Assembly (NCBI RefSeq): GCF_947497025.1
Contig: NZ_CANMFC010000007.1
Span: 1 to 64,000 of the forward strand
DNA from: an uncultured Kushneria sp.
GTDB taxonomy: Bacteria > Pseudomonadota > Gammaproteobacteria > Pseudomonadales > Halomonadaceae
Reading direction: 5' to 3'
DNA length: 64,000 bases
The translations under genes and the position numbers were made by a program. The notes under the pieces were generated by a model that saw only the letters and a program-made list of their open reading frames with translations, had not been told where the DNA came from and did no database searches. This document shows, in pieces, positions 1 to 9,453 of the stretch (the first letter of the stretch is position 1; each line of letters opens with the position of its first letter).

Positions 1-22
1 CACGGCCTGCGGCGCCGGCCCC

Positions 23-50
23 GCCCGCGGTCACGACCGTGACCGCGGGC
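23..50. repeat. Perfect 12-bp inverted repeat (hairpin)
   Basis: Two 12-base arms (23-34 and 39-50, gcccgcggtcac / gtgaccgcgggc) flank a 4-base loop. It lies just downstream, on the minus strand, of the stop codon of the aminotransferase-like tail at 71-148. That position fits a transcription end, but no T-run follows on either strand, so intrinsic termination is unproven. Confidence 0.4.
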
Positions 51-70
51 GAGGGCGAGGGCGTCTCGCC

Positions 71-148
71 TCAGGGCCCCTCGTGCAGGGCCGTCAGCGC
101 CTCGGTCAGGGCGGCCATCTCTGCCTCGGTGCCGATTGGTAAACGCAA
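71..148 (-). pseudogene. Possible C-terminal remnant of an aminotransferase (HisC-like)
   Basis: The last 25 codons of a minus-strand frame ending at 71 read LRLPIGTEAEMAALTEAL and a few more residues. This resembles the C-terminal end of class I aminotransferases such as histidinol-phosphate aminotransferase, where an R-(hydrophobic)-x-x-GT-x-E-x-x-x-L pattern closes the fold. Upstream of about 148 the same frame loses any resemblance, and base composition drops sharply in GC. I infer a truncated gene end left by deletion or rearrangement. A chance resemblance cannot be excluded over such a short stretch. Confidence 0.25.
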
Positions 149-294
149 AAAAGGTTTATATGGGAAATCAAACGCTTCCCATGCAAAGAGACTTGGTATT
201 ACATCGATTTTTGCACCACAATGAATAGGCAAGTGCCCGGGGTTTCGGGTATATCGTTGATGTAATGAATACAGTAGGCAAGGGAGAGCTGACG

Positions 295-546
295 ATGAAA
301 AAAACACTGGGTATTTTGCTGGCTGCAATGATGGTATTTGCTGTGGCCGGTTGTAATAACGATGACGGCCCTGCTGAAGAGACCGGTGCAAAGGTTGATA
401 ACGCCGCCGACAATGCTGGAGATGCGACCAGCGATGCGGCTGATTCTGTCGGCGATGCTGCCAGTGATGCAGCTGACTCTACTGGCCAGGCCATGGAAGA
501 TGCTGGTGACTCCATCAGCGACAGCGCTGAAGAGCACAGCAACTGA
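295..546 (+). CDS. Small Ala/Asp-rich lipoprotein
   Basis: An 83-residue protein of unknown function. It starts at the ATG at 295, preceded by a good AAGGGAGAG ribosome site, rather than at upstream in-frame codons. Residues 1-20 form a lipoprotein signal peptide with lipobox VAGC, so the mature protein should be anchored by an acylated Cys. The rest is low-complexity and strongly acidic: a degenerate repeat of the type DAADS-x-GDA is reiterated about five times over residues 35-80. This would form an amphipathic or disordered helical tether, somewhat like LEA-type or entericidin-like small envelope proteins. It is followed directly by a strong terminator, so it is a single-gene unit. Confidence 0.7.
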   Translation: MKKTLGILLAAMMVFAVAGCNNDDGPAEETGAKVDNAADNAGDATSDAADSVGDAASDAADSTGQAMEDAGDSISDSAEEHSN

Positions 547-571
547 TCTATCCCGATAGGGTAGAGAAGTG

Positions 572-605
572 AAAAAGCCTCCTGACATCGTCAGGAGGCT
601 TTTTT
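572..605. terminator. Bidirectional intrinsic terminator
   Basis: Stem agcctcctgac / gtcaggaggct (576-586 and 590-600) with an A-run on the left and T-run on the right. It serves the lipoprotein gene ending at 546 and the converging gene ending at 631. Confidence 0.9.
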
Positions 606-630
606 GATTTGGCGCGACTGTTTCAGGCTA

Positions 631-843
631 TTACTGGGCGCCGGCCGCACCCACCGCTGCACCCGCCGCGCCGCCAATGAGGGCGCCTTTCCCTGCACTG
701 CCTCCCGTGATGGCGCCGGCAGCAGCGCCTGTAAGGCCGCCGATACCGGCACCCTGAGCCGCGCTGCGCCCGGTAGGACTGCTACAGGCTGTTAGAAGCG
801 TCAGCGCTGCCACGGTTGTCATCACCACAATCCCTTTATGCAT
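631..843 (-). CDS. Small glycine-zipper lipoprotein
   Basis: A 70-residue protein with a lipoprotein signal peptide (lipobox LTAC near residue 20). A glycine-zipper segment fills the C-terminal half: GAGIGGLTGAAAGAITGG and a second GAALGGAAG-like run, spaced Gly/Ala every three to four residues. Glycine-zipper proteins of this kind (YMGG/OsmB/SlyB-like) sit in the envelope and are often stress-induced. The 70-residue size suits an OsmB-like protein. It converges on the neighbouring lipoprotein gene and shares its terminator. The exact role cannot be read from the sequence. Confidence 0.7.
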   Translation of the reverse strand: MHKGIVVMTTVAALTLLTACSSPTGRSAAQGAGIGGLTGAAAGAITGGSAGKGALIGGAAGAAVGAAGAQ

Positions 844-949
844 GATGTCTCTCCTCGCAAGCGTTCAATAAAAGATAGCCGGATCCTCTTGTTATCGGCC
901 ACCCCAGTAAATACTGGACTGAAATCCTGAGTAATTTGAAAAACGCCCA

Positions 950-973
950 TAAAAAACCCTGCAATAAGCAGGG
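950..973 (-). terminator. Intrinsic terminator of the 48-residue gene
   Basis: Read on the minus strand, stem CCCTGC-TTATT-GCAGGG is followed by six T. It lies 10 bases past the stop at 983. Confidence 0.85.
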
Positions 974-982
974 CTCGATAGG

Positions 983-1129
983 TTAGGATTCTGGTCGCGG
1001 TTTTGGCTTAACCCTGATAGGAAAAGATTTCCCGGGAGGAGCTACAATAACTTTTCCTGTTTTGGGATGCCTGAAAGACTTCCTGAAAATGAATTCTCCA
1101 GAAGAATCAGGGGGAAGGTTGTCGCTCAT
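983..1129 (-). CDS. Hypothetical 48-residue basic protein
   Basis: Unrecognised small protein. The start at 1129 (MSDNLPPDSSGEF...) is chosen because AGAGGTAG lies at a suitable distance upstream. The longer frame running to 1294 has no ribosome site and crosses a probable noncoding region. The C-terminal half is basic and contains HPKTGKVIVAPPGKSFPIRV, a short beta-rich pattern seen in several small uncharacterised bacterial proteins with a 'TGK.I.A..GK.F' core. It has its own intrinsic terminator, which supports it being a real transcription unit. No function is assigned. Confidence 0.55.
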   Translation of the reverse strand: MSDNLPPDSSGEFIFRKSFRHPKTGKVIVAPPGKSFPIRVKPKPRPES

Positions 1130-1172
1130 ATCAAATCTACCTCTCAATTGAATGTTGGTAACAATTGATGCG

Positions 1173-1201
1173 TTGACTTGAGCACAGATCCCTACCAAAA
1201 T
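1173..1201 (+). promoter_or_regulatory. Candidate plus-strand promoter for a small RNA
   Basis: TTGACT (1173-1178), 17-base spacer, then CAAAAT (1196-1201). The -35 is good and the -10 is mediocre. No plus-strand gene follows, only the structured region ending in a terminator at 1339. Confidence 0.3.
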
Positions 1202-1207
1202 CCGTTT

Positions 1208-1339
1208 GCCAATTGGGTTTGGAGAGATCCTGCTCAAAGAAGTAACAAGGCTTGCCGGCCTTCTACTTCTACTTAGATACGTGCATCTTCGCATCTAAGT
1301 CAGTTCGGGCCCTGTTTAGCGACAGGGCCCGAATTTTTT
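1208..1339 (+). ncRNA. Candidate small RNA, about 130 nt
   Basis: Between the 48-residue gene and nrdB, the plus strand carries two consecutive hairpins. The first has an 8-bp stem (1271-1278 with 1293-1300). The second has a 12-bp perfect stem (1304-1315 with 1322-1333), a 6-base loop and six T (1334-1339), which is a textbook intrinsic terminator. The T-run is on the plus strand only, so the hairpin is oriented for a plus-strand transcript and not for nrdB. No credible ORF lies upstream on that strand, so a small RNA starting near 1208 is inferred. The terminator is seen directly; the transcript is not. Confidence 0.35.
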
Positions 1340-1344
1340 ATGCC

Positions 1345-2451
1345 TCAGTCCCAGGTCAGCGCGCCGCCGGTCTGATATTCGGTTACCCGCGTTTCGAAGA
1401 AGTTCTTCTCCTTGGGCAGATCGATCAGTTCCGACATCCACGGGAACGGGTTTTCCACGTCATCAAAGAGCAGACCCAGACCAATCTGTTCGCTGCGGCG
1501 GTTGGCGATGAACTGCATGTACTGCTCGGTAAGCTCGGCATTCAGGCCCAGGATGCCGCGCGGCATGGTTTCACGGCCATAGGCCGCTTCCAGCTTGTAG
1601 GCTTCCAGAAGCATGCCACGCACTTCCTGCTGGAAGGCGTCATCCCATAGATGCGGATTTTCGATCTTGATCTGATTGATGCAGTCGATACCAAAGTTCA
1701 GGTGGATGGACTCATCGCGCAGGATGTACTGATACTGCTCGGCAATCCCCACCATCTTGTTGCGGCGACCCAGCGCCAGGATCTGGGCAAAACCGGTGTA
1801 GAACCACATGCCTTCAAACACGACATAAAAGGCCACCAGCGCGCGCAGGAAGGCCTGGTCACGTTCGATGGTACCGGTTGTGAAGCTCGGGTCTTCCAGT
1901 GCTTGGGTGTACTTGAGCGCCCAGGCATCCTTGTCGGTGATCGAGGGGATTTCCCGATACATGTTGAAAAGCTCACCCTCATCCAGACCCAGCGACGTGC
2001 AGATGTACTGGAAGGTATGGGTATGGATGGCTTCTTCAAAGGCCTGGCGCAGCAGGTACTGGCGACACTCCGGATTGGTGATGTTGCGATAGACGGCCAG
2101 CACGATGTTGTTGGCGACCAGCGACTCGGCGGTCGCAAAAAAGCCGAGGTTGCGCTTGAGCATCAGCACCTCGTCTTCGGTCAGCCCCTGCGGACTATTG
2201 ACCGGTGCACGCCATGTGGCGATATCGCCCTGCATGGAGACTTCGGTCGGCATCCAGTGGTTGTTACAGCCTGCCAGATACTTTTCCCATGCCCAGCTGT
2301 ACTTCAGCGGCAACAGCTGATTGACGTCGCTCTGGGCATTGATCATGGCCTTCTGGCTGGCATCAATACGCTGAGCGCCGGCCTGAATTTCACCCAGACC
2401 GGTGTTGTCGACCTGATCGTTGTCATCAGCAAACAGGTTGGTCTCTTGCAT
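1345..2451 (-). CDS. nrdB: Ribonucleotide reductase small subunit, class Ic-like (Phe at radical site)
   Basis: The 368-residue R2 subunit partners NrdA to make deoxyribonucleotides. The start at 2451 follows AGGGAGAG. All six metal ligands are visible: Glu109, Glu140, His143, Glu213, Glu247 and His250. The residue that is the radical Tyr122 in E. coli is Phe147 here (context IHTHTFQYI), and the first ligand is Glu instead of Asp. Each of these sits exactly 20 residues after its Chlamydia trachomatis R2 counterpart (E89, E120, H123, F127, E193, E227, H230), the type protein for Mn/Fe class Ic enzymes. The C-terminal tail ends ALTWD and would dock on NrdA. It is cotranscribed with nrdA, which lies 99 bases upstream. 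A Mn/Fe cofactor is inferred, not shown. Confidence 0.95.
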
Positions 2452-2550
2452 GATTCTCTCCCTTGCCATCACCCGAGTATGTTCAACGGCGAGTGTGGTC
2501 TTGAGTGCAGTAGACGGTGGCCCTGCAGGGCCACCGTCGTATTGATCAAA

Positions 2551-5451
2551 TTACTGGCAGGCTTCGCAGTCCGGATCATCGAGTGAGCAGGCCAGTGGCG
2601 GTGCCGAGCCCAGCGGCTGCTGGGGAGCCTGCGAGGCCTCCGGTGCCGGCGCGGGCGCTGGCTGCGGCGTCGGTGCGTTGGGCTTGACGCCGGTCAGCTT
2701 GCCATCGGTGCCCTTGAGCGTTGATTTCTCAAGGCGAGTAGAAGCCTGCGCACGGAGGTAATAGGTGGTCTTCAGACCCAGCTGCCACGCCATGCGGTAG
2801 GTGGTATCCAGCTTGCGACCGGAAACACCGCTGATGTAGAGGTTCAGGGACTGTGCCTGGTCGATCCACTTCTGACGGCGCGAGGCAGCCTCGACGATCC
2901 AGCGCGGCTCGATTTCAAACGCCGTGGCATAGCGCTGCTTCAGATCGTCCGGGATGCGATCGATTGGCTGAAGCGAGCCATCGTAGTACTTGAGGTCATT
3001 GATCATCACCTCATCCCACAGGCCACGCTCCTTGAGCGCATGCACCATGTGCGAGTTGACCACCGTGAACTCGCCCGACAGGTTCGACTTCACATACAGG
3101 TTCTGATAGGTCGGCTCGATCGACTGTGTCACGCCACAGATATTGGAGATGGTGGCCGTCGGTGCGATCGCCATGACGTTGGAGTTACGCATGCCCTGAC
3201 GGCGTACCTTGTTGCGAATGTGGTCCCAGTCCTGCGTGGTAGAGGTGTCCATCTGCACATACTGCTCGCCACGCTCGCGCTGCAGGTCATTAATGGAGTC
3301 GATGGGCAGAATGCCCTGGCTCCAGAGTGAGCCTTCGTAGGATTCATACTGGCCGCGCTCGGCTGCCAGGTCGCTGGAGGCTTCGATGGCGTGATAGCTG
3401 ATCAGCTCCATGGAACGATCGGCAAAGGTCACGGCGTCATCGGAGGCATAGGCGATACCATGCTTGTACAGCGCATCCTGAAAGCCCATCAGGCCCAGAC
3501 CGACCGGGCGGTGACGGAAGTTGGAGCGTTTGGCCTGCGGCACGGCGTAATAATTGATGTCGATGACGTTATCGAGCATGCGCACGGCCGTCCTGACCGA
3601 CCGCTTGAGCTTCTCGCTGTCCAGCTGGCCATCAACCACGTGAGCCGCCAGGTTGATCGACCCCAGGTTGCAGACGGCAATTTCGTCAACGCTGGTGTTG
3701 AGCGTGATCTCGGTGCACAGGTTGGAAGAGTGCACGACGCCGGCATGACGCTGCGGGCTGCGCAGGTTGCACGGATCCTTGAAGGTGATCCAGGGATGGC
3801 CTGTTTCAAACAGCATCGACAGCATCTTGCGCCACAGATCCTTGGCCTGTACGCGTTTGAACAGCGTGATCTCACCGGTCTGCGTCATGGCTTCGTACTC
3901 TTCATAACGCTTCTCGAAGGCCGCGCCATAAAGGTCATGCAGATCAGGACAGGTGGCCGGTGAGAAGAGTGTCCATTCCTTCTCTTCGCTGACGCGCTTC
4001 ATGAATAGGTCCGGTACCCAATTGGCCGTGTTCATGTCATGCGTGCGGCGACGGTCATCACCGGTGTTCTTGCGAAGTTCGAGGAACTCCTCGACGTCCA
4101 TGTGCCAGGTTTCTAGGTACGAGCAGACCGCGCCCTTGCGCTTGCCGCCCTGGTTGACGGCCACGGCCGTATCGTTGACGACCTTGAGGAAGGGCACAAC
4201 GCCTTGTGACTTGCCGTTGGTGCCCTTGATGTAGGAGCCCAGCGCACGCACCGGCGTCCAGTCATTGCCCAGGCCGCCGGCCCACTTGGAGAGCATGGCG
4301 TTGTCACGAATGGCGCCGTAGATGCCTTCAAGGTTATCCGGCACGGTGGTCAGATAGCACGAGGACAGCTGGCTGCGCACGGTGCCGGCATTGAACAGCG
4401 TGGGCGTCGAGGTCATGTAATCGAAGCTCGACAGCAGCTCATAGAACTCGATGGCGCGCGCTTCACGATCCTGCTCGTTCAGCGACAGGCCCATGGCCAC
4501 GCGCATGAACATGACCTGCGGCAGTTCGTAGCGAACGCCGTCGCGATGCAGGAAGTAACGGTCGTAAAGCGTCTGCAGACCCAGATAGGTGAACTGGTTG
4601 TCACGCTCGTGGTTCAGGGCATCGCCCAGGCGCTCAAGGTCGAACTCGGCCAGGACCGGATCGAGCTGCTCGAATTCAATGCCGCGCTTGATGTAGTTCT
4701 GGAAGGCCGGCTTGTAGAGCGTCGCCATGTCACCAAAGGTGGCTTCCTCGGCGACTTCAAGGAAGGAGAGGGCTTCACGGCGCAGATTGTCCTGCAAAAG
4801 ACGCGCGGTAACGAAGGTGTAGTTGGGCTCCTTCTCGACCAGCATGCGCGCGGTCATCATCAGTGCCGTGGCGACGCCATCGGGCGTTACGCCGTCATAG
4901 AGGTTGCGCAGCGACTCATCCATGATGCGACGCACTTCAACGTTATCCAGACCCGCGCAGGCTTCGGTAATCAGTGTCTCGATGCGCGCCAGATCCAGCG
5001 GGCGACGGCTGCCGTCAGGCTGGGTCACGTTGATGGTGGGGTGGGGCTTTTCGATACCCTGATGCTGCGCGGCGCGCGCACGAGCGTGCTCTTCACGGTA
5101 GAGCACGTAGGCGCGGGCCACCTTGTGTTCACCCGAACGCATCAGAGCCAGTTCCACCTGATCCTGGATATCTTCGATATGCAGGGTGCCGCCTTCCGGC
5201 ATACGACGCGCGAACGTCTCCATGATGGACTGCGTCAGCTGTTCGACCTGCTCGCGAATGCGAGAGGAGCCGGCGGCGTTGTCACCTTCCACGGCAAGAA
5301 AGGCCTTGCTCATCGCCACGGAGACCTTGCTCGCATCAAAGGTGGCGGTGTCACCGGTACGCTTGATGACGCGCAGTTGCTGATCGGTCTGGCGCGTATG
5401 AGCATCATCAAGAATTGATGAGGTATCACGCTCTGTATGCGAGGTTTCCAT
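2551..5451 (-). CDS. nrdA: Ribonucleotide reductase large subunit (alpha), two ATP-cones
   Basis: The 966-residue catalytic subunit reduces ribonucleoside diphosphates in the cytoplasm. The start at 5451 follows AAAGGTAACGTT. Two ATP-cone domains are recognisable at about residues 25-130 and 140-230, as in the longer Pseudomonas/Chlamydia-type NrdA; E. coli has one. Active-site cysteines appear in SSCYL, NLCTEI and CNLGSINLA, with the radical-relay tyrosine pair in TTYYLRAQA. The tail ends DDPDCEACQ, a CxxC for re-reduction by thioredoxin or glutaredoxin, preceded by a Pro/Ala-rich linker. It is the first gene of nrdAB. Upstream are two NrdR boxes and a DnaA box. Confidence 0.97.
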   Translation of the reverse strand: METSHTERDTSSILDDAHTRQTDQQLRVIKRTGDTATFDASKVSVAMSKAFLAVEGDNAAGSSRIREQVEQLTQSIMETFARRMPEGGTLHIEDIQDQVELALMRSGEHKVARAYVLYREEHARARAAQHQGIEKPHPTINVTQPDGSRRPLDLARIETLITEACAGLDNVEVRRIMDESLRNLYDGVTPDGVATALMMTARMLVEKEPNYTFVTARLLQDNLRREALSFLEVAEEATFGDMATLYKPAFQNYIKRGIEFEQLDPVLAEFDLERLGDALNHERDNQFTYLGLQTLYDRYFLHRDGVRYELPQVMFMRVAMGLSLNEQDREARAIEFYELLSSFDYMTSTPTLFNAGTVRSQLSSCYLTTVPDNLEGIYGAIRDNAMLSKWAGGLGNDWTPVRALGSYIKGTNGKSQGVVPFLKVVNDTAVAVNQGGKRKGAVCSYLETWHMDVEEFLELRKNTGDDRRRTHDMNTANWVPDLFMKRVSEEKEWTLFSPATCPDLHDLYGAAFEKRYEEYEAMTQTGEITLFKRVQAKDLWRKMLSMLFETGHPWITFKDPCNLRSPQRHAGVVHSSNLCTEITLNTSVDEIAVCNLGSINLAAHVVDGQLDSEKLKRSVRTAVRMLDNVIDINYYAVPQAKRSNFRHRPVGLGLMGFQDALYKHGIAYASDDAVTFADRSMELISYHAIEASSDLAAERGQYESYEGSLWSQGILPIDSINDLQRERGEQYVQMDTSTTQDWDHIRNKVRRQGMRNSNVMAIAPTATISNICGVTQSIEPTYQNLYVKSNLSGEFTVVNSHMVHALKERGLWDEVMINDLKYYDGSLQPIDRIPDDLKQRYATAFEIEPRWIVEAASRRQKWIDQAQSLNLYISGVSGRKLDTTYRMAWQLGLKTTYYLRAQASTRLEKSTLKGTDGKLTGVKPNAPTPQPAPAPAPEASQAPQQPLGSAPPLACSLDDPDCEACQ

Positions 5452-5583
5452 AACGTTACCTTTCTGTCTTAAGGTCAAAACCGTGCCTTGCCTGCCGATT
5501 TAAAAAGCACGGCAGATCATCACGGGATCGAAAAAAGTTGGGTCACAAGATATTGACAGCTGTTAGAAGAATCTGCTGCAAAA

Positions 5584-5599
5584 ACACTACATGGTGTGT
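5584..5599. promoter_or_regulatory. NrdR box 1
   Basis: acactacatggtgtgt matches the palindromic NrdR consensus acaCwATATAwtGtgt at about 13 of 16 positions. It begins exactly 31 bases before the second box, three helical turns, which is the usual NrdR pair geometry. NrdR represses nrd genes when dATP/ATP is high. Confidence 0.8.
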
Positions 5600-5614
5600 C
5601 TGTCGACCAGGTGG

Positions 5615-5630
5615 ACACAATATAGTGTGT
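5615..5630. promoter_or_regulatory. NrdR box 2
   Basis: acacaatatagtgtgt matches the NrdR consensus at 15 of 16 positions. With box 1 it should form the repressor binding region for nrdAB. Confidence 0.88.
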
Positions 5631-5680
5631 CTGGCGAATACCCTCAATAGGAAAAAACGACTCGAATCGGGCGCACAATC

Positions 5681-5689
5681 TGTGGATAA
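5681..5689 (-). promoter_or_regulatory. DnaA box upstream of nrdAB
   Basis: A perfect TTATCCACA on the minus strand, about 230 bases before the nrdA start and 51 bases upstream of NrdR box 2. In E. coli, DnaA sites at the nrdAB promoter tie expression to replication initiation; the same arrangement is inferred here. Confidence 0.6.
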
Positions 5690-6034
5690 AGTGTGCTTAC
5701 CTCGCCACAGGCCTTGCCATTACTGGCATGCCGGCGGTTACATGAAAATTCCGGTAGGGATGCGTTTTTTTGTCGCGAATATTTCAGCTCGACCGCTGGC
5801 ACACCGAATAAAATTCATGCCGATTAGAGCCTGATGATGAGAATCGTGTGCAAATACGTGGCTTCTGTATGGGCACTTTCGTGTAACAGTGGCACAATGT
5901 TGCCAAAGTTGAACGACCGTTGGGTTTGAAGGTCACATTTATCGCTGTCTGCCTGCCGTATGTGCGGGCGCTGCCCGTGCAGCATGCCGGTGACGGCACG
6001 GAAGCTTCTTTATCAATGATCGGACGGACGAGCC

Positions 6035-6748
6035 TTGGATAACATTACAACCGCCAACGAACACATTCTTATCATTGAAGATGATGAACGACTGGCCGCG
6101 TTGACGCGTGAGTATCTTGAAGGCAACGGTTTCAGGGTCAGCGTCGAGCATGACGGCACCAATGGCGTCGAACGTATTCTGTCCCTGCGGCCGGACCTGG
6201 TCATTCTTGACCTGATGCTGCCGGGTGAAGATGGTCTGTCCATTTGCCGCCGCGTACGCCACCAGTATCCCGGCCCCATTTTGATGCTGACAGCTCGTAC
6301 CGATGACATGGATCAGGTGCTGGGTCTTGAAATGGGTGCTGATGATTATGTCCCCAAACCGGTGCCACCGCGTGTCCTGCTGGCACGCATGCGCGCGCTG
6401 CTGCGTCGTGCTGATGGGTCGGAAACCAACGAGCAGGAAGAGACCCGTCTCGAGTTTCGTGATCTGGTGGTGGACTCCTCAACCAGAGAGGCATGGCTCA
6501 ACGGCGAGCGCATCGATCTGACCAGTGCCGAATTTGATCTACTGTGGCTGCTGGCCTCCCATGCCGGCCGAGTGCTGACGCGTGAAGAGATCTTCTCGGC
6601 GCTGCGCGGCATTCGTTATGATGGTCAGGATCGTTCGATAGACGTGCGTGTTTCTCGCATTCGACCCAAGATCGGTGATGACCCGCATCAGCCGCAGCGT
6701 ATCAAGACCGTGCGCAGCAAGGGATACCTGTTCGTTCGAGAGATCTGA
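6035..6748 (+). CDS. rstA: OmpR-family response regulator, RstA-like
   Basis: A 237-residue two-component regulator. It begins at a TTG (6035) behind GGACGGACGAG; no ATG is available in frame. The receiver domain (about 10-125) shows the acidic pair in IEDDE, the phosphoacceptor Asp in VILDLMLPGEDG and the conserved Lys in YVPKP. The C-terminal winged helix (about 140-235) ends RIKTVRSKGYLFV, typical of OmpR/RstA. The kinase gene follows after 74 bases and is almost certainly cotranscribed. The RstA assignment rests on the pairing with an RstB-like kinase and overall sequence; another OmpR subgroup is possible. Confidence 0.85.
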   Translation: MDNITTANEHILIIEDDERLAALTREYLEGNGFRVSVEHDGTNGVERILSLRPDLVILDLMLPGEDGLSICRRVRHQYPGPILMLTARTDDMDQVLGLEMGADDYVPKPVPPRVLLARMRALLRRADGSETNEQEETRLEFRDLVVDSSTREAWLNGERIDLTSAEFDLLWLLASHAGRVLTREEIFSALRGIRYDGQDRSIDVRVSRIRPKIGDDPHQPQRIKTVRSKGYLFVREI

Positions 6749-6822
6749 ACCAGCAAATACCTGATCTTGTCTCGTGAAGGACGGCTTCGTCTACTGTAAA
6801 GAACCCTGTGTAAGGATAGACG

Positions 6823-8529
6823 ATGCCGTCAAAATTCCCTTCTCTCGCCTCATGGCACTCCCGCTCGGGCGGGGCGGACGGTCTGGCACCGCCGCCTCAC
6901 CGACCACTGTCCGCCCACGGCGGTTTTCGTCGACTCTACCTGACCCTGTTTTTCTCACTCATGGCCATTTTCTGGGTGGGCGTGGTCGCCTCATGGCTGA
7001 TTGACGACTGGCGCGAGGATCATTACCGCCAGCGCCTGGCCAGTGGGCCGATGGCGCTTTTGACCTCTCTGGTCGCCAGCCAGCCGGAAAGCTCCCGCGA
7101 TGCATGGCTGAGTGCCTATGAGGATGAGCTGGGCATTCGTCTGGCGCTGTCGGATTCTGAAACGCTGATGCTCGGGTTCATGGACCGGCGTCGTCTGGCA
7201 CAGGGGGGCGTTCTGGCTCGGCAGGCTCAGGGTGAAATTGGCTGGCAGCTTTATCAGCGTCTGCCCGGTGAAGATGATGCCATTTTGGTGGCGCATTTTA
7301 CCGGTCTTTCCGAGCAGCAGCCTTTGCAGCTTGTCTCCCTGCTGCGTCAGTGGCTGGAGCTGTCCCCCGATGATGAGCGTGAGGCCCGCTTTCAGGAGCT
7401 GCGCAGCCGTATCTCCCTGCCCATGGGCATGGGCAGTGGCACGCCGCCGGGGCTTTCCAACAGCCAGCTGGCGCAGCTCAATGCCGGTCATGTCGTGATC
7501 AACGTGGTGGCAGAGCGCTCAAGTCTTGGTTTCTACGCCCAGTTTTCGGGAGGGCGATGGATCATGGTCGGGCCGCTGTCGCCGTTTGAATCGCTGCCCA
7601 TTGTGACCATTGCCATGGTCATGGCGCTGATGCTGACCCTGCTGGGGACGGCCATCTATTTCATCATGCGCAGTGTCGAGAAACGCCTGACCCGGCTTGA
7701 GCAGACCACGGCTAGCTTTACGGCCGGCGACTACAACGCGCGCGTGACCATTCAGGAAGGGGAGTATCTCACCCAGCTTGGGCTGGCCTTCAATACCATG
7801 GCCGACCAGGTCCAGGCGGTACTCTCTTCACAGCAGGATCTGATGCGGGCGGTCTCGCATGAGTTTCGAACCCCCGTGGCGCGAGTGCGCTTTGCGCTGC
7901 AGATGGTCGATGACATGAGCGAGTCGCCCGGGATCAGGCGGCTGCTCAAGGGGGTGGATGATGACATCGAATCCATCGACCGACTCATCGATGAAATTCT
8001 GACCTACGCACGCCTGGACAGCGCCACCGACGGGCTTCTGCCGCTGGAGCCGGTCAGCCTTGAAGTGCGTGACATTGCCGACCGCGTGGTCGAGACACTG
8101 ACACCGCTGCATCCGCAACTGACGCTTGAAGTGACCGGCGGTCAGGAGCTCAACGTGCATGCCGATTCGCGCTATTTGCAGCGCGCGCTGCAGAATCTGG
8201 TCTCCAATGCCTGTACCCATGCCCGTAGCCGGGTGCATGTGCGCCTGCTGGGCGATGAGCGCATGGTGTATCTCAGCGTCGAGGATGATGGCGCGGGGGT
8301 GCCCCTCGAGGAGCGCGAACGCATATTCAAGCCCTTCGCGCGTCTTGATGACAGCCGCACCCGGCATCAGCCCGGCGTTGGTGGCTACGGTCTGGGTCTG
8401 GCGATCGTGGCCCGTATCGTCCAATGGCACCATGGGCGCATTACGGTCGATACGGCCCCCGAGCTGGGCGGTGCCCAGTTCATTCTTTCCCTGCCGCGTC
8501 ACTACGAAGCGATGGAAGAATACACCTGA
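6823..8529 (+). CDS. rstB: Sensor histidine kinase, RstB-like
   Basis: A 568-residue inner-membrane kinase partnering the regulator just upstream. The ATG at 6823 follows AAGGATAG. A cytoplasmic N-tail is followed by TM1 (about 38-62), a periplasmic sensor of roughly 190 residues, TM2 (about 255-280) and a HAMP linker. The phospho-His box is AVSHEFRTP near 342-350. The HATPase domain shows the N-box NLVSNACTH and the G-boxes EDDGAGVP and GYGLGLAI. SHEFRTPVARVR fits the RstB subgroup. The periplasmic domain gives no clue to the stimulus. Confidence 0.85.
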   Translation: MPSKFPSLASWHSRSGGADGLAPPPHRPLSAHGGFRRLYLTLFFSLMAIFWVGVVASWLIDDWREDHYRQRLASGPMALLTSLVASQPESSRDAWLSAYEDELGIRLALSDSETLMLGFMDRRRLAQGGVLARQAQGEIGWQLYQRLPGEDDAILVAHFTGLSEQQPLQLVSLLRQWLELSPDDEREARFQELRSRISLPMGMGSGTPPGLSNSQLAQLNAGHVVINVVAERSSLGFYAQFSGGRWIMVGPLSPFESLPIVTIAMVMALMLTLLGTAIYFIMRSVEKRLTRLEQTTASFTAGDYNARVTIQEGEYLTQLGLAFNTMADQVQAVLSSQQDLMRAVSHEFRTPVARVRFALQMVDDMSESPGIRRLLKGVDDDIESIDRLIDEILTYARLDSATDGLLPLEPVSLEVRDIADRVVETLTPLHPQLTLEVTGGQELNVHADSRYLQRALQNLVSNACTHARSRVHVRLLGDERMVYLSVEDDGAGVPLEERERIFKPFARLDDSRTRHQPGVGGYGLGLAIVARIVQWHHGRITVDTAPELGGAQFILSLPRHYEAMEEYT

Positions 8530-8535
8530 GGCCTT

Positions 8536-9453
8536 TCAGCCGGCCGGGCGTATGCCATTGAGCACGGAAAAGGACGTCTCGCGCGCCGTGCGCAGAAAGT
8601 CACTCATCCAGACCTGGCTCATCTGATCGACCCGGACGGCCGCATACAGTGTCCCCCACACGCCGTCCCGGCCCAGTGAGCATGCCTTCACATAATCCTT
8701 TTCAAGATATTCGGTCAGCGCCCAGTTCGGCAGGGCGCAAACCCCACGCTCGCTCGCGACCAGCTGCATCATCATCATGGTCAGCTCGGCCGTGCGGGTC
8801 TCGCGTGGGTGAATGCCGGCGGGTTCCAGAAAGCGGGTAAAGACATCGAGCTTTGAATGTTCTACCGGATAGGTGATCAGGATCTGGTCGATCAGATCCT
8901 CCGGCACGACATGTCGCTTGTCGGCCAGAGGGTGCTGTCGGGCCACGGCCAGCAGGCTTTCGTAGCGAAAAAGCGGCTCGTAGTGAATGCGCGGCAGCGG
9001 TTGCGGGTCGGCCGTGATGACCAGGTCAAGCTGCTCACGTGCCAGCGCCGGTAGCGGGTCAAAATGCTGGCCGGCAGGGATATCTACCTCGACCTCGGGC
9101 CAGTGGTCGCGAAAGTGATCGATGGTTGGCATGAGCCATTGAAAGCAACTGTGGCATTCAATGGCCATGTGCAGGCGGCCCTGTTCTCCGCCGGCCATGC
9201 GCGCGATATCACGCTCGGCATTACGAATCTGGGGCAGCACCTGCTCGGCCAGACCCAGAAGCCTCTGGCCGGCACGCGTAAACTGTACCGGGCGCGTCTT
9301 GCGCAAAAAAAGCGGGCAGTCCAATCGCTCTTCCAGATCCTTGAGCTGATGAGACAATGCCGACTGGGTCAAATGCACGCGCTCGGCGGCTTCAACCAGT
9401 GACCCGGTATCGCGCAGTGCCAGCAGGGTACGCAGGTGCCGGAACTCGATCAT
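8536..9453 (-). CDS. metR: LysR-family regulator MetR
   Basis: A 305-residue LysR-type activator of methionine biosynthesis (metE/metH in enterics, with homocysteine as coregulator). The N-terminal winged HTH (about 1-60) reads IEFRHLRTLLALRDTGSLV then TQSALSHQLKDLE, closely matching E. coli MetR. The effector domain keeps the MetR-type run IECHSCFQWL near 118-127 and the YAAVR motif near the end. It converges on the kinase gene with only 6 bases between stops. No met gene lies in this window, so its targets are elsewhere. Confidence 0.9.
   Translation of the reverse strand: MIEFRHLRTLLALRDTGSLVEAAERVHLTQSALSHQLKDLEERLDCPLFLRKTRPVQFTRAGQRLLGLAEQVLPQIRNAERDIARMAGGEQGRLHMAIECHSCFQWLMPTIDHFRDHWPEVEVDIPAGQHFDPLPALAREQLDLVITADPQPLPRIHYEPLFRYESLLAVARQHPLADKRHVVPEDLIDQILITYPVEHSKLDVFTRFLEPAGIHPRETRTAELTMMMMQLVASERGVCALPNWALTEYLEKDYVKACSLGRDGVWGTLYAAVRVDQMSQVWMSDFLRTARETSFSVLNGIRPAG

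Follow-up and report, generated by a model that had tools for sequence, protein, structure and literature searches.

The window analysed here, a stretch of 64,000 nucleotides from an uncultured Kushneria sp., carries near its start the two subunit genes of a class I reductase, both on the minus strand. The nrdB gene (1345..2451) starts with an ATG at 2451 and its stop codon ends at 1345, a GTG at 2472 being a possible alternative start upstream; it encodes a Phe/Glu (class Ic-type) radical subunit of 368 aa and of the actinobacterial type. The nrdA gene (2551..5451) encodes 966 aa with two ATP cones. The NCBIfam names of the products were PRK07209 for NrdB and PRK07207 for NrdA, both with scores far above the cut-off. 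Residues 1 to about 900 of NrdA (approximately 2752-5451) are of the Halomonadaceae type, and the 3' end of nrdA (residues ~901-966; 2551..2751, minus strand) is of the actinobacterial/alphaproteobacterial type and is the putative start of a foreign tract. The 99-bp spacer between nrdA and nrdB (2452..2550, minus strand) would belong to this tract as well.

Divergently from nrdA, a response regulator gene (6035..6748, plus strand) lies beside a sensor histidine kinase gene (6823..8529, plus strand); both are conserved at nrdA in the Halomonadaceae, and the former marks the ancestral locus. The pair was matched in 17 of the 18 other loci compared, with positions read for some of them. The compared loci were from Kushneria, Larsenimonas, other Halomonadaceae, and two further gammaproteobacteria, one of which had the matches. 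Judged by these conserved neighbours, the nrdA neighbourhood is the ancestral one.

The genome (3.53 Mb in 20 contigs, rated 100% complete) has one PF00268 match (NrdB) and one PF02867 match (class I/II catalytic subunit); beyond these, no reductase subunit of class I, II or III was detected in it, and there was no match to the NRDD (NrdD) profile. Unless a reductase escaped detection, the NrdAB pair must therefore be functional. NrdAB could in principle be a decaying or silent locus in a cell whose dNTPs are made by another enzyme, as two genomes of the same genus (G125 and G127) are without the chimera and carry a different reductase instead, that is, an Asp/Tyr NrdA/NrdB pair of 27-33% identity (L151 and L152; the nearest PDB relative of the L151 NrdB is 2rcc). 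However, both the nrdA and nrdB frames are intact, those Kushneria and Larsenimonas rows that were read retain the NrdB ligands, and the genome gave no sign of a second enzyme, which makes a silent locus hardly credible.

Diagnostic residues and class of NrdB

The sequence-only reading of this DNA had claimed that NrdB carries Phe at the site of the radical Tyr and Glu in place of the Asp ligand, with all ligand positions offset by exactly 20 from those of the Chlamydia trachomatis R2, and the codons and an alignment bore this out. Phe147 (TTC, 2011..2013, minus strand) occupies the site of the radical Tyr of class Ia/Ib, and the first metal ligand, which is Asp in class Ia/Ib, is Glu109 (GAG, 2125..2127, minus strand). 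The codons of the other ligands, all on the minus strand, were read directly as GAA for E140 (2032-2034), CAT for H143 (2023-2025), GAA for E213 (1813-1815), GAG for E247 (1711-1713), and CAC for H250 (1702-1704). In the phmmer alignment with 1syy, which we take to be the C. trachomatis R2, the ligand region was ungapped with a constant offset of 20 from the numbers presumed for that protein (E89, E120, H123, F127, E193, E227, and H230). The structure 4m1i, which is named class Ic/R2c in the available text of PMC8463856 and PMC4118035, fell in the same match group as 1syy. Furthermore, W66, F217, and Y242 of NrdB aligned with W51, F197, and Y222, the residues discussed for R2c in PMC4118035. 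The C. trachomatis R2c (1syy, 4m1i) is thus like the window protein in the Phe, the Glu, all other ligands, and the equivalents of W51, F197, and Y222.

The Tyr nearest to Phe147 is Y149, which is near-invariant in the Phe forms and the Tyr forms alike; hence, it is not the displaced radical Tyr. Nor is the Phe/Glu pair a sequencing slip, since NrdB was matched in 266 of 275 Halomonadaceae genomes and all 12 of those with at least 85% identity carried E109 and F147, whereas D109 and Y147 were found in every one of the next 18 that were read (66-68% identity).

In the available text of PMC8463856, Tyr/Asp is the pairing of classes Ia and Ib, Phe/Glu that of class Ic, and Tyr/Glu that of class Id; Glu as the first ligand together with Phe is given for R2c in PMC4118035 as well. 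The window NrdB has this Phe and this Glu, the five further ligands, and the electron-transfer equivalents W66 and Y242. Class Ia was rejected, the Tyr/Asp pairing being replaced by F147 and E109, and so was class Id, for which the Glu is present and the Tyr absent. The closest solved relative by phmmer was 6y2n (E 1.8e-190), an actinobacterial protein in which the motifs HTHTFQYI and EGMWFYTGF are identical to those of the window NrdB; its organism is Saccharopolyspora erythraea (PMC7467353). The Chlamydia protein of 1syy/4m1i was also among the best solved relatives, and Chlamydia rows are absent from the trees described below. By its residues and relatives, the window NrdB is likely class Ic-type, in agreement with the sequence-only reading. 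The class Id NrdBi proteins of Flavobacterium johnsoniae, Facklamia ignava, and Leeuwenhoekiella blandensis resemble it in the Glu first ligand (available text of PMC8463856 and PMC6754362); however, they keep the Tyr, use Mn2, and are distant, as 6cwp (class Id according to PMC8463856) matched with an E of only 1.5e-5. Inspection by eye of the ORFs at window positions 1-9000 gave no recognisable nrdI, the gene that accompanies nrdEF in class Ib.

The two diagnostic residues were strictly linked. Among NrdB relatives of at least 38% identity, 137 were Glu/Phe, 73 were Asp/Tyr, and none was mixed (210 of the 227 loci with an NrdB match), numbers that are not population frequencies, many loci repeating one gene and most having been found with the window query. 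Reduced to distinct sequences, 106 Glu/Phe and 57 Asp/Tyr proteins made up the 163, with no Asp/Phe and no Glu/Tyr. Of the 17 below 38% identity, 10 were Asp/Tyr, 2 were Glu/Leu, and 1 was Glu/Phe, and the other 4 had Asp together with a gap at the radical site. Some distant forms were observed on their own account. In the actinobacterial phylum search, NrdB at L201 and L202 (G743 and G765), about 35% identical, has Glu as the first ligand and Leu at the radical site (EENIHADSLLYM), and L198, L199, and L200 hold distant Glu/Phe proteins of 37-40% identity with the motif EEMNHTVTFDYV. NrdB at L203, L204, L206, and L207 has EEAVHVQFYLTLLD; its pairwise alignment shows a three-residue gap at the radical site, which leaves a Tyr there uncertain.

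The linkage extended to further positions. In a selected set of 82 proteins, from which two of the 84 had been omitted as being of a different type, the 48 Glu/Phe and the 34 Asp/Tyr members were fully separated at 109, 147, 47, 49, 69, 72, 186, and 219, gappy columns excluded. In the 71 nearest NrdB, positions 47, 63, 69, 109, 146, 147, 216, 234, 249, and 312 differed between the groups with more than 90% agreement on each side, and 146, 216, and 249 adjoin ligands in the sequence.

Lineages of NrdB and NrdA

The closest named NrdB among the genome contigs was that of Kushneria phyllosphaerae, with 99% identity. The other long matches in the family were mostly 65-68% identical among the matches listed, and every one read was Asp/Tyr (D109 and Y147, in two overlapping sets of 18 and 14). 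The NrdB of 14 Halomonadaceae, all Asp/Tyr, showed 65-68% identity to the window protein, compared with 77-82% over nearly the full length for 75 actinobacterial loci (among the 80 loci kept), all Glu/Phe. In a sample of the phylum Pseudomonadota, NrdB was matched in 212 of 398 genomes and at full length with at least 76% identity in 10, namely, three Kushneria and seven from outside the class, these seven being all Glu/Phe; an eleventh genome of the sample, G651, had an NrdB fragment at 76%. The name alphaproteobacterial is given to these seven on the basis of their grouping with named plasmid copies from Hyphomicrobiales. In the actinobacterial phylum sample (198 genomes from the phylum to which a Nocardiopsis belongs, among them the Nocardiopsis itself), NrdB was matched in 42 genomes, 2 at 79-80%, 5 at 57-58%, and the rest at no more than 41%. 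As judged from these matches, the NrdB type of the window is common to Kushneria, Larsenimonas, some actinomycetes, and some Hyphomicrobiales.

NrdB and NrdA trees were built on one set of 61 rows, which remained of the 84 after 8 had been dropped as truncated, lone, fused or of a different type and 15 had been thinned out. In the NrdB tree, Kushneria and Larsenimonas grouped with the actinobacteria and alphaproteobacteria (branch 91/91), and constraining them to the Halomonadaceae lowered the log-likelihood by 210 and was rejected (p-AU 1.8e-33). A topology in which the actinobacteria and alphaproteobacteria form a clade excluding Kushneria and Larsenimonas was not rejected (p-AU 0.199); with this result and the 91/91 branch, the direction of transfer rests on the whole pattern. 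The pairing with Micrococcales bacterium 31B reached only 67/58 in this first tree. In a denser NrdB tree (52 rows thinned from 122; midpoint-rooted, no outgroup row kept), Kushneria and Larsenimonas had Micrococcales bacterium 31B as their nearest neighbour (95/86), followed by Kineococcus (92/87). L160 and L161, within the Kushneria/Larsenimonas group, were placed differently in the NrdB and NrdA trees.

These NrdB data also bear on whether the Glu/Phe pair could have arisen from Asp/Tyr by mutation within the Halomonadaceae, with no gene transfer. Two codon changes would suffice for it. Nevertheless, convergence of this kind would have to account for an identity of 77-82% to actinobacterial NrdB over nearly the whole protein, for ten positions that split the near Glu/Phe and Asp/Tyr groups, for the rejected grouping with the Halomonadaceae, and for the lack of a single Asp/Phe or Glu/Tyr intermediate among 163 distinct relatives, and we consider it extremely improbable.

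Mobile copies were considered as carriers for Kushneria and rejected. Among phage records, the best NrdB identity was only 67%. Seven plasmid copies of 74-76% identity came from records named Phyllobacterium, Methylocella or Aureimonas, the hosts being alphaproteobacteria by the taxonomy lines of three records, and these copies, like that on the contig L241, are of the alphaproteobacterial type. L241, listed as viral and the sole viral contig found in a pattern-limited scan, carries a Glu/Phe NrdB, 77% identical, which groups with that type. In Pseudomonas phage Lauda (L232), the window NrdB matched in two pieces lying in two annotated ORFs, and the piece that was read is Asp/Tyr. At L224 and L226, which are on plasmids of Pseudomonas amygdali and Acidithiobacillus caldus, nrdB was found without nrdA among the annotated neighbours, the gene tables being incomplete; such plasmids are a possible vehicle for moving NrdB alone.

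The lineage of NrdA was distinctly different. Its identity was 74-80% to 14 Halomonadaceae, 60-68% to 20 actinobacteria (in some cases not along the full protein), and 61-67% to 10 alphaproteobacteria. In the NrdA tree, from a quick search, Kushneria and Larsenimonas formed one clade with the Halomonadaceae (SH-aLRT 99), and grouping them with the actinobacteria and alphaproteobacteria lowered the log-likelihood by 144 and was rejected (p-AU 1.3e-186); the topology tests were compatible with a place either inside or beside the sampled Halomonadaceae. In the other NrdA of this lineage that were examined, the partner NrdB was Asp/Tyr. It had been proposed from the sequence that the window holds a whole class Ic-type system, and a class Ic operon acquired or inherited as a unit would agree with the class Ic type of NrdB, with the adjacency of the two genes, and with the joint carriage of NrdA and Phe/Glu NrdB in actinobacteria and alphaproteobacteria. 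However, NrdA did not group with the NrdA of Phe/Glu operons, as it would in an operon of one origin, its identity to the Halomonadaceae clearly exceeded that to the actinobacterial and alphaproteobacterial Phe/Glu operons, and the native neighbours of nrdA were retained. The proposal of a whole system is therefore abandoned, and a joint origin of the two genes appears very unlikely.

The same proposal had drawn on the two ATP cones of NrdA, and this argument failed as well. Two ATP-cone stretches were found with Pfam in the window NrdA, in the native L153 from an Asp/Tyr operon, in L161, and in the actinobacterial L056, whereas none was found in the Phe-paired actinobacterial NrdA of L010, L012, and L017, each read over its entire open frame. 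Since the cones are present in a Tyr-paired NrdA and absent from three Phe-paired ones, they are no marker of class Ic.

Between Kushneria/Larsenimonas and the Halomonadaceae, 17 near-fixed NrdA differences were found, of which 5 are common with the actinobacteria and alphaproteobacteria, 3 of the 5 sitting in the NrdA tail (912, 916, and 960). At 26 positions, NrdA was native-type against the actinobacteria and alphaproteobacteria. Therefore, an adaptation of the NrdA core to the new partner is not clearly visible. A second case of mismatched subunits was observed in one Pseudomonadota family (f39): at L190, L239, and L240, NrdB is only 40-42% identical with an odd HTWTYQH motif, and the NrdA of L190 and L239, about 61% identical to the window NrdA, groups with the gammaproteobacterial L179 (L240 was excluded from the trees).

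The switch region at the 3' end of nrdA

The Tyr dyad of NrdA is Y897-Y898, and the foreign-type end directly follows it. In windows of 60 residues, the similarity of NrdA to the Halomonadaceae exceeded that to the actinobacteria and alphaproteobacteria everywhere before 871-930, was level there (0.64 vs 0.63), and was reversed at 901-960 (0.41 vs 0.51). The cumulative difference in similarity peaked at residue 901. Residues 899-925 scored -5.2, whereas the lowest of the 872 overlapping windows of the same length within 1-898 scored +0.81; the placement of the switch is based on about 27 alignable residues. On these similarities, the switch is near NrdA residue 901, just past the Tyr dyad, and a foreign tract would most simply start there and run through nrdB. 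In the DNA-level comparison for the switch point, no trace remained.

A short insert in the tail showed the same partition. The motif GTDG[K/R/Q]L at NrdA 914-919 was present in all 10 Kushneria/Larsenimonas rows, all 19 actinobacterial rows, and all 10 alphaproteobacterial rows, and in none of the 14 Halomonadaceae rows; it read exactly GTDGKL in 10/10, 11/19, and 8/10 of the first three groups, respectively, the remainder being GTDGRL or GTDGQL. Two residues were missing at this place in 14/14 Halomonadaceae and in 9 of the 12 gammaproteobacterial rows; the remaining gammaproteobacterial rows were L179, with the comparable insert GRDNKL, and two that could not be aligned here. No such insert is present in the more distant Glu/Phe groups (5 Actino58 and 3 haloarchaeal rows).

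In nrdB, the G+C content is 0.565, compared with 0.61 for the window, and there is no trace of a high-G+C donor, which is the pattern that an old event would leave. An insertion, RAPVNSP or close to it, was present at NrdB residues ~81-87 in 10/10 Kushneria/Larsenimonas rows; this site was filled in 1 of the 72 other rows (L082, Kribbella), with a different sequence.

The putative alpha/beta chimera and its cofactor

The reading that we prefer, with a probability of roughly 0.8, is that the reductase is a natural alpha/beta chimera produced by ancestral recombination, and that its NrdB most likely uses Mn(IV)/Fe(III). An actinobacterial-type nrdAB operon would have recombined with the resident genes in the ancestor common to Kushneria and Larsenimonas, replacing in place the last ~65 nrdA codons and the whole of nrdB; the core of nrdA, with both ATP cones, and the locus would have stayed native. 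The Asp/Tyr (class Ia-type) NrdB would thereby have given way to a Glu/Phe (class Ic-type) one. Either homologous exchange or a deletion between tandem operons could give the observed structure. We infer that Kushneria and Larsenimonas were the recipients, since the subunits travel together in the actinobacteria and alphaproteobacteria and are split here, and since the Asp/Tyr NrdB of the Halomonadaceae goes with that of other gammaproteobacteria.

The class Ia-type NrdAB of other Halomonadaceae and of Pseudomonas-like gammaproteobacteria has a common NrdA lineage with the window, two ATP cones (L153), common neighbours, and nearly the same NrdB C-terminal tail; it differs in Asp109/Tyr147 of NrdB and in the C-terminal tail of NrdA. 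Between Glu/Phe and Asp/Tyr proteins, the NrdB tail hardly differs, which may explain the docking of a foreign NrdB on a native NrdA, and the co-transferred NrdA tail may have helped. By analogy with the C. trachomatis R2, Mn at site 1 of the Mn(IV)/Fe(III) cluster, formed through O2 activation with Fe at site 2, would replace the tyrosyl radical. In roles that we assume from class I enzymes, W66, D246, and the tail residue Y359 would then relay the oxidising equivalent to the NrdA dyad Y897-Y898 and the active-site cysteine. On balance, we lean towards one in-place recombination, with its switch right after the Tyr dyad, having turned the sole reductase from a tyrosyl-radical into a Mn/Fe metal-radical enzyme.

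The chimera could also be real while its NrdB uses Fe/Fe, Mn/Mn or another radical site. Metal content is not readable from sequence, and for the actinobacterial branch only a crystal structure was found in the literature (6y2n, reported as a structure, and with no assay of its cofactor, in the available text of PMC7467353). In the available text of PMC4118035, the structural basis of metal specificity is given as unsettled, and no R2c had been shown with Mn/Fe in vivo as of 2014; among the class Ic enzymes covered in the available text of the papers, Mn/Fe was shown only for that of C. trachomatis. However, the R2 of C. trachomatis, which is related to the window NrdB (E 6e-127) and likewise Phe/Glu, reaches high activity only with Mn/Fe (PMC4118035), and the Mn2 type, class Id, is Tyr/Glu and not Phe/Glu (PMC8463856). 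We therefore consider another metal site unlikely, and by analogy the Mn/Fe cofactor is the most likely one for the window NrdB. Manganese import does not discriminate, since Nramp-type matches were found in 10/10 genus genomes searched, including two without the window-type NrdB.

Unlike the C. trachomatis R2c, the window NrdB has a partner NrdA from the Halomonadaceae lineage that is otherwise seen with a Tyr-type NrdB, and its cofactor is a predicted one. In haloarchaeal class Ic, a Phe-bearing NrdB and the class I reductase came from bacteria by horizontal transfer (Lundin 2010, PMC3019208, available text). The two cases are alike in that a Phe-bearing NrdB was gained by halophiles, and the plasmid copies L229-L231 are Glu/Phe. 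Nevertheless, the haloarchaeal genes, 50-54% identical, were transferred as a set (PMC3019208), whereas in the window only NrdB and the NrdA end look foreign.

The Phe/Glu type of NrdB is already known. No report of such an NrdA/NrdB chimera was found in the literature, which is weak evidence of novelty, as many subscription papers were outside the search, and within the same limited coverage an exchange of the radical subunit alone was not found in print. A Phe/Glu NrdB working with a native NrdA from a Tyr-type lineage would be a natural experiment. It poses the questions of what NrdA requires of its radical donor and of which residues set Mn/Fe against Fe/Fe-Tyr, and, since related genera hold 74-80% identical NrdA with the other radical type, both are testable with ordinary proteins. 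The strict linkage of Glu109 and Phe147 against Asp and Tyr, together with the eight other positions linked to them among the near relatives, offers a short list of candidate residues for the choice of metal.
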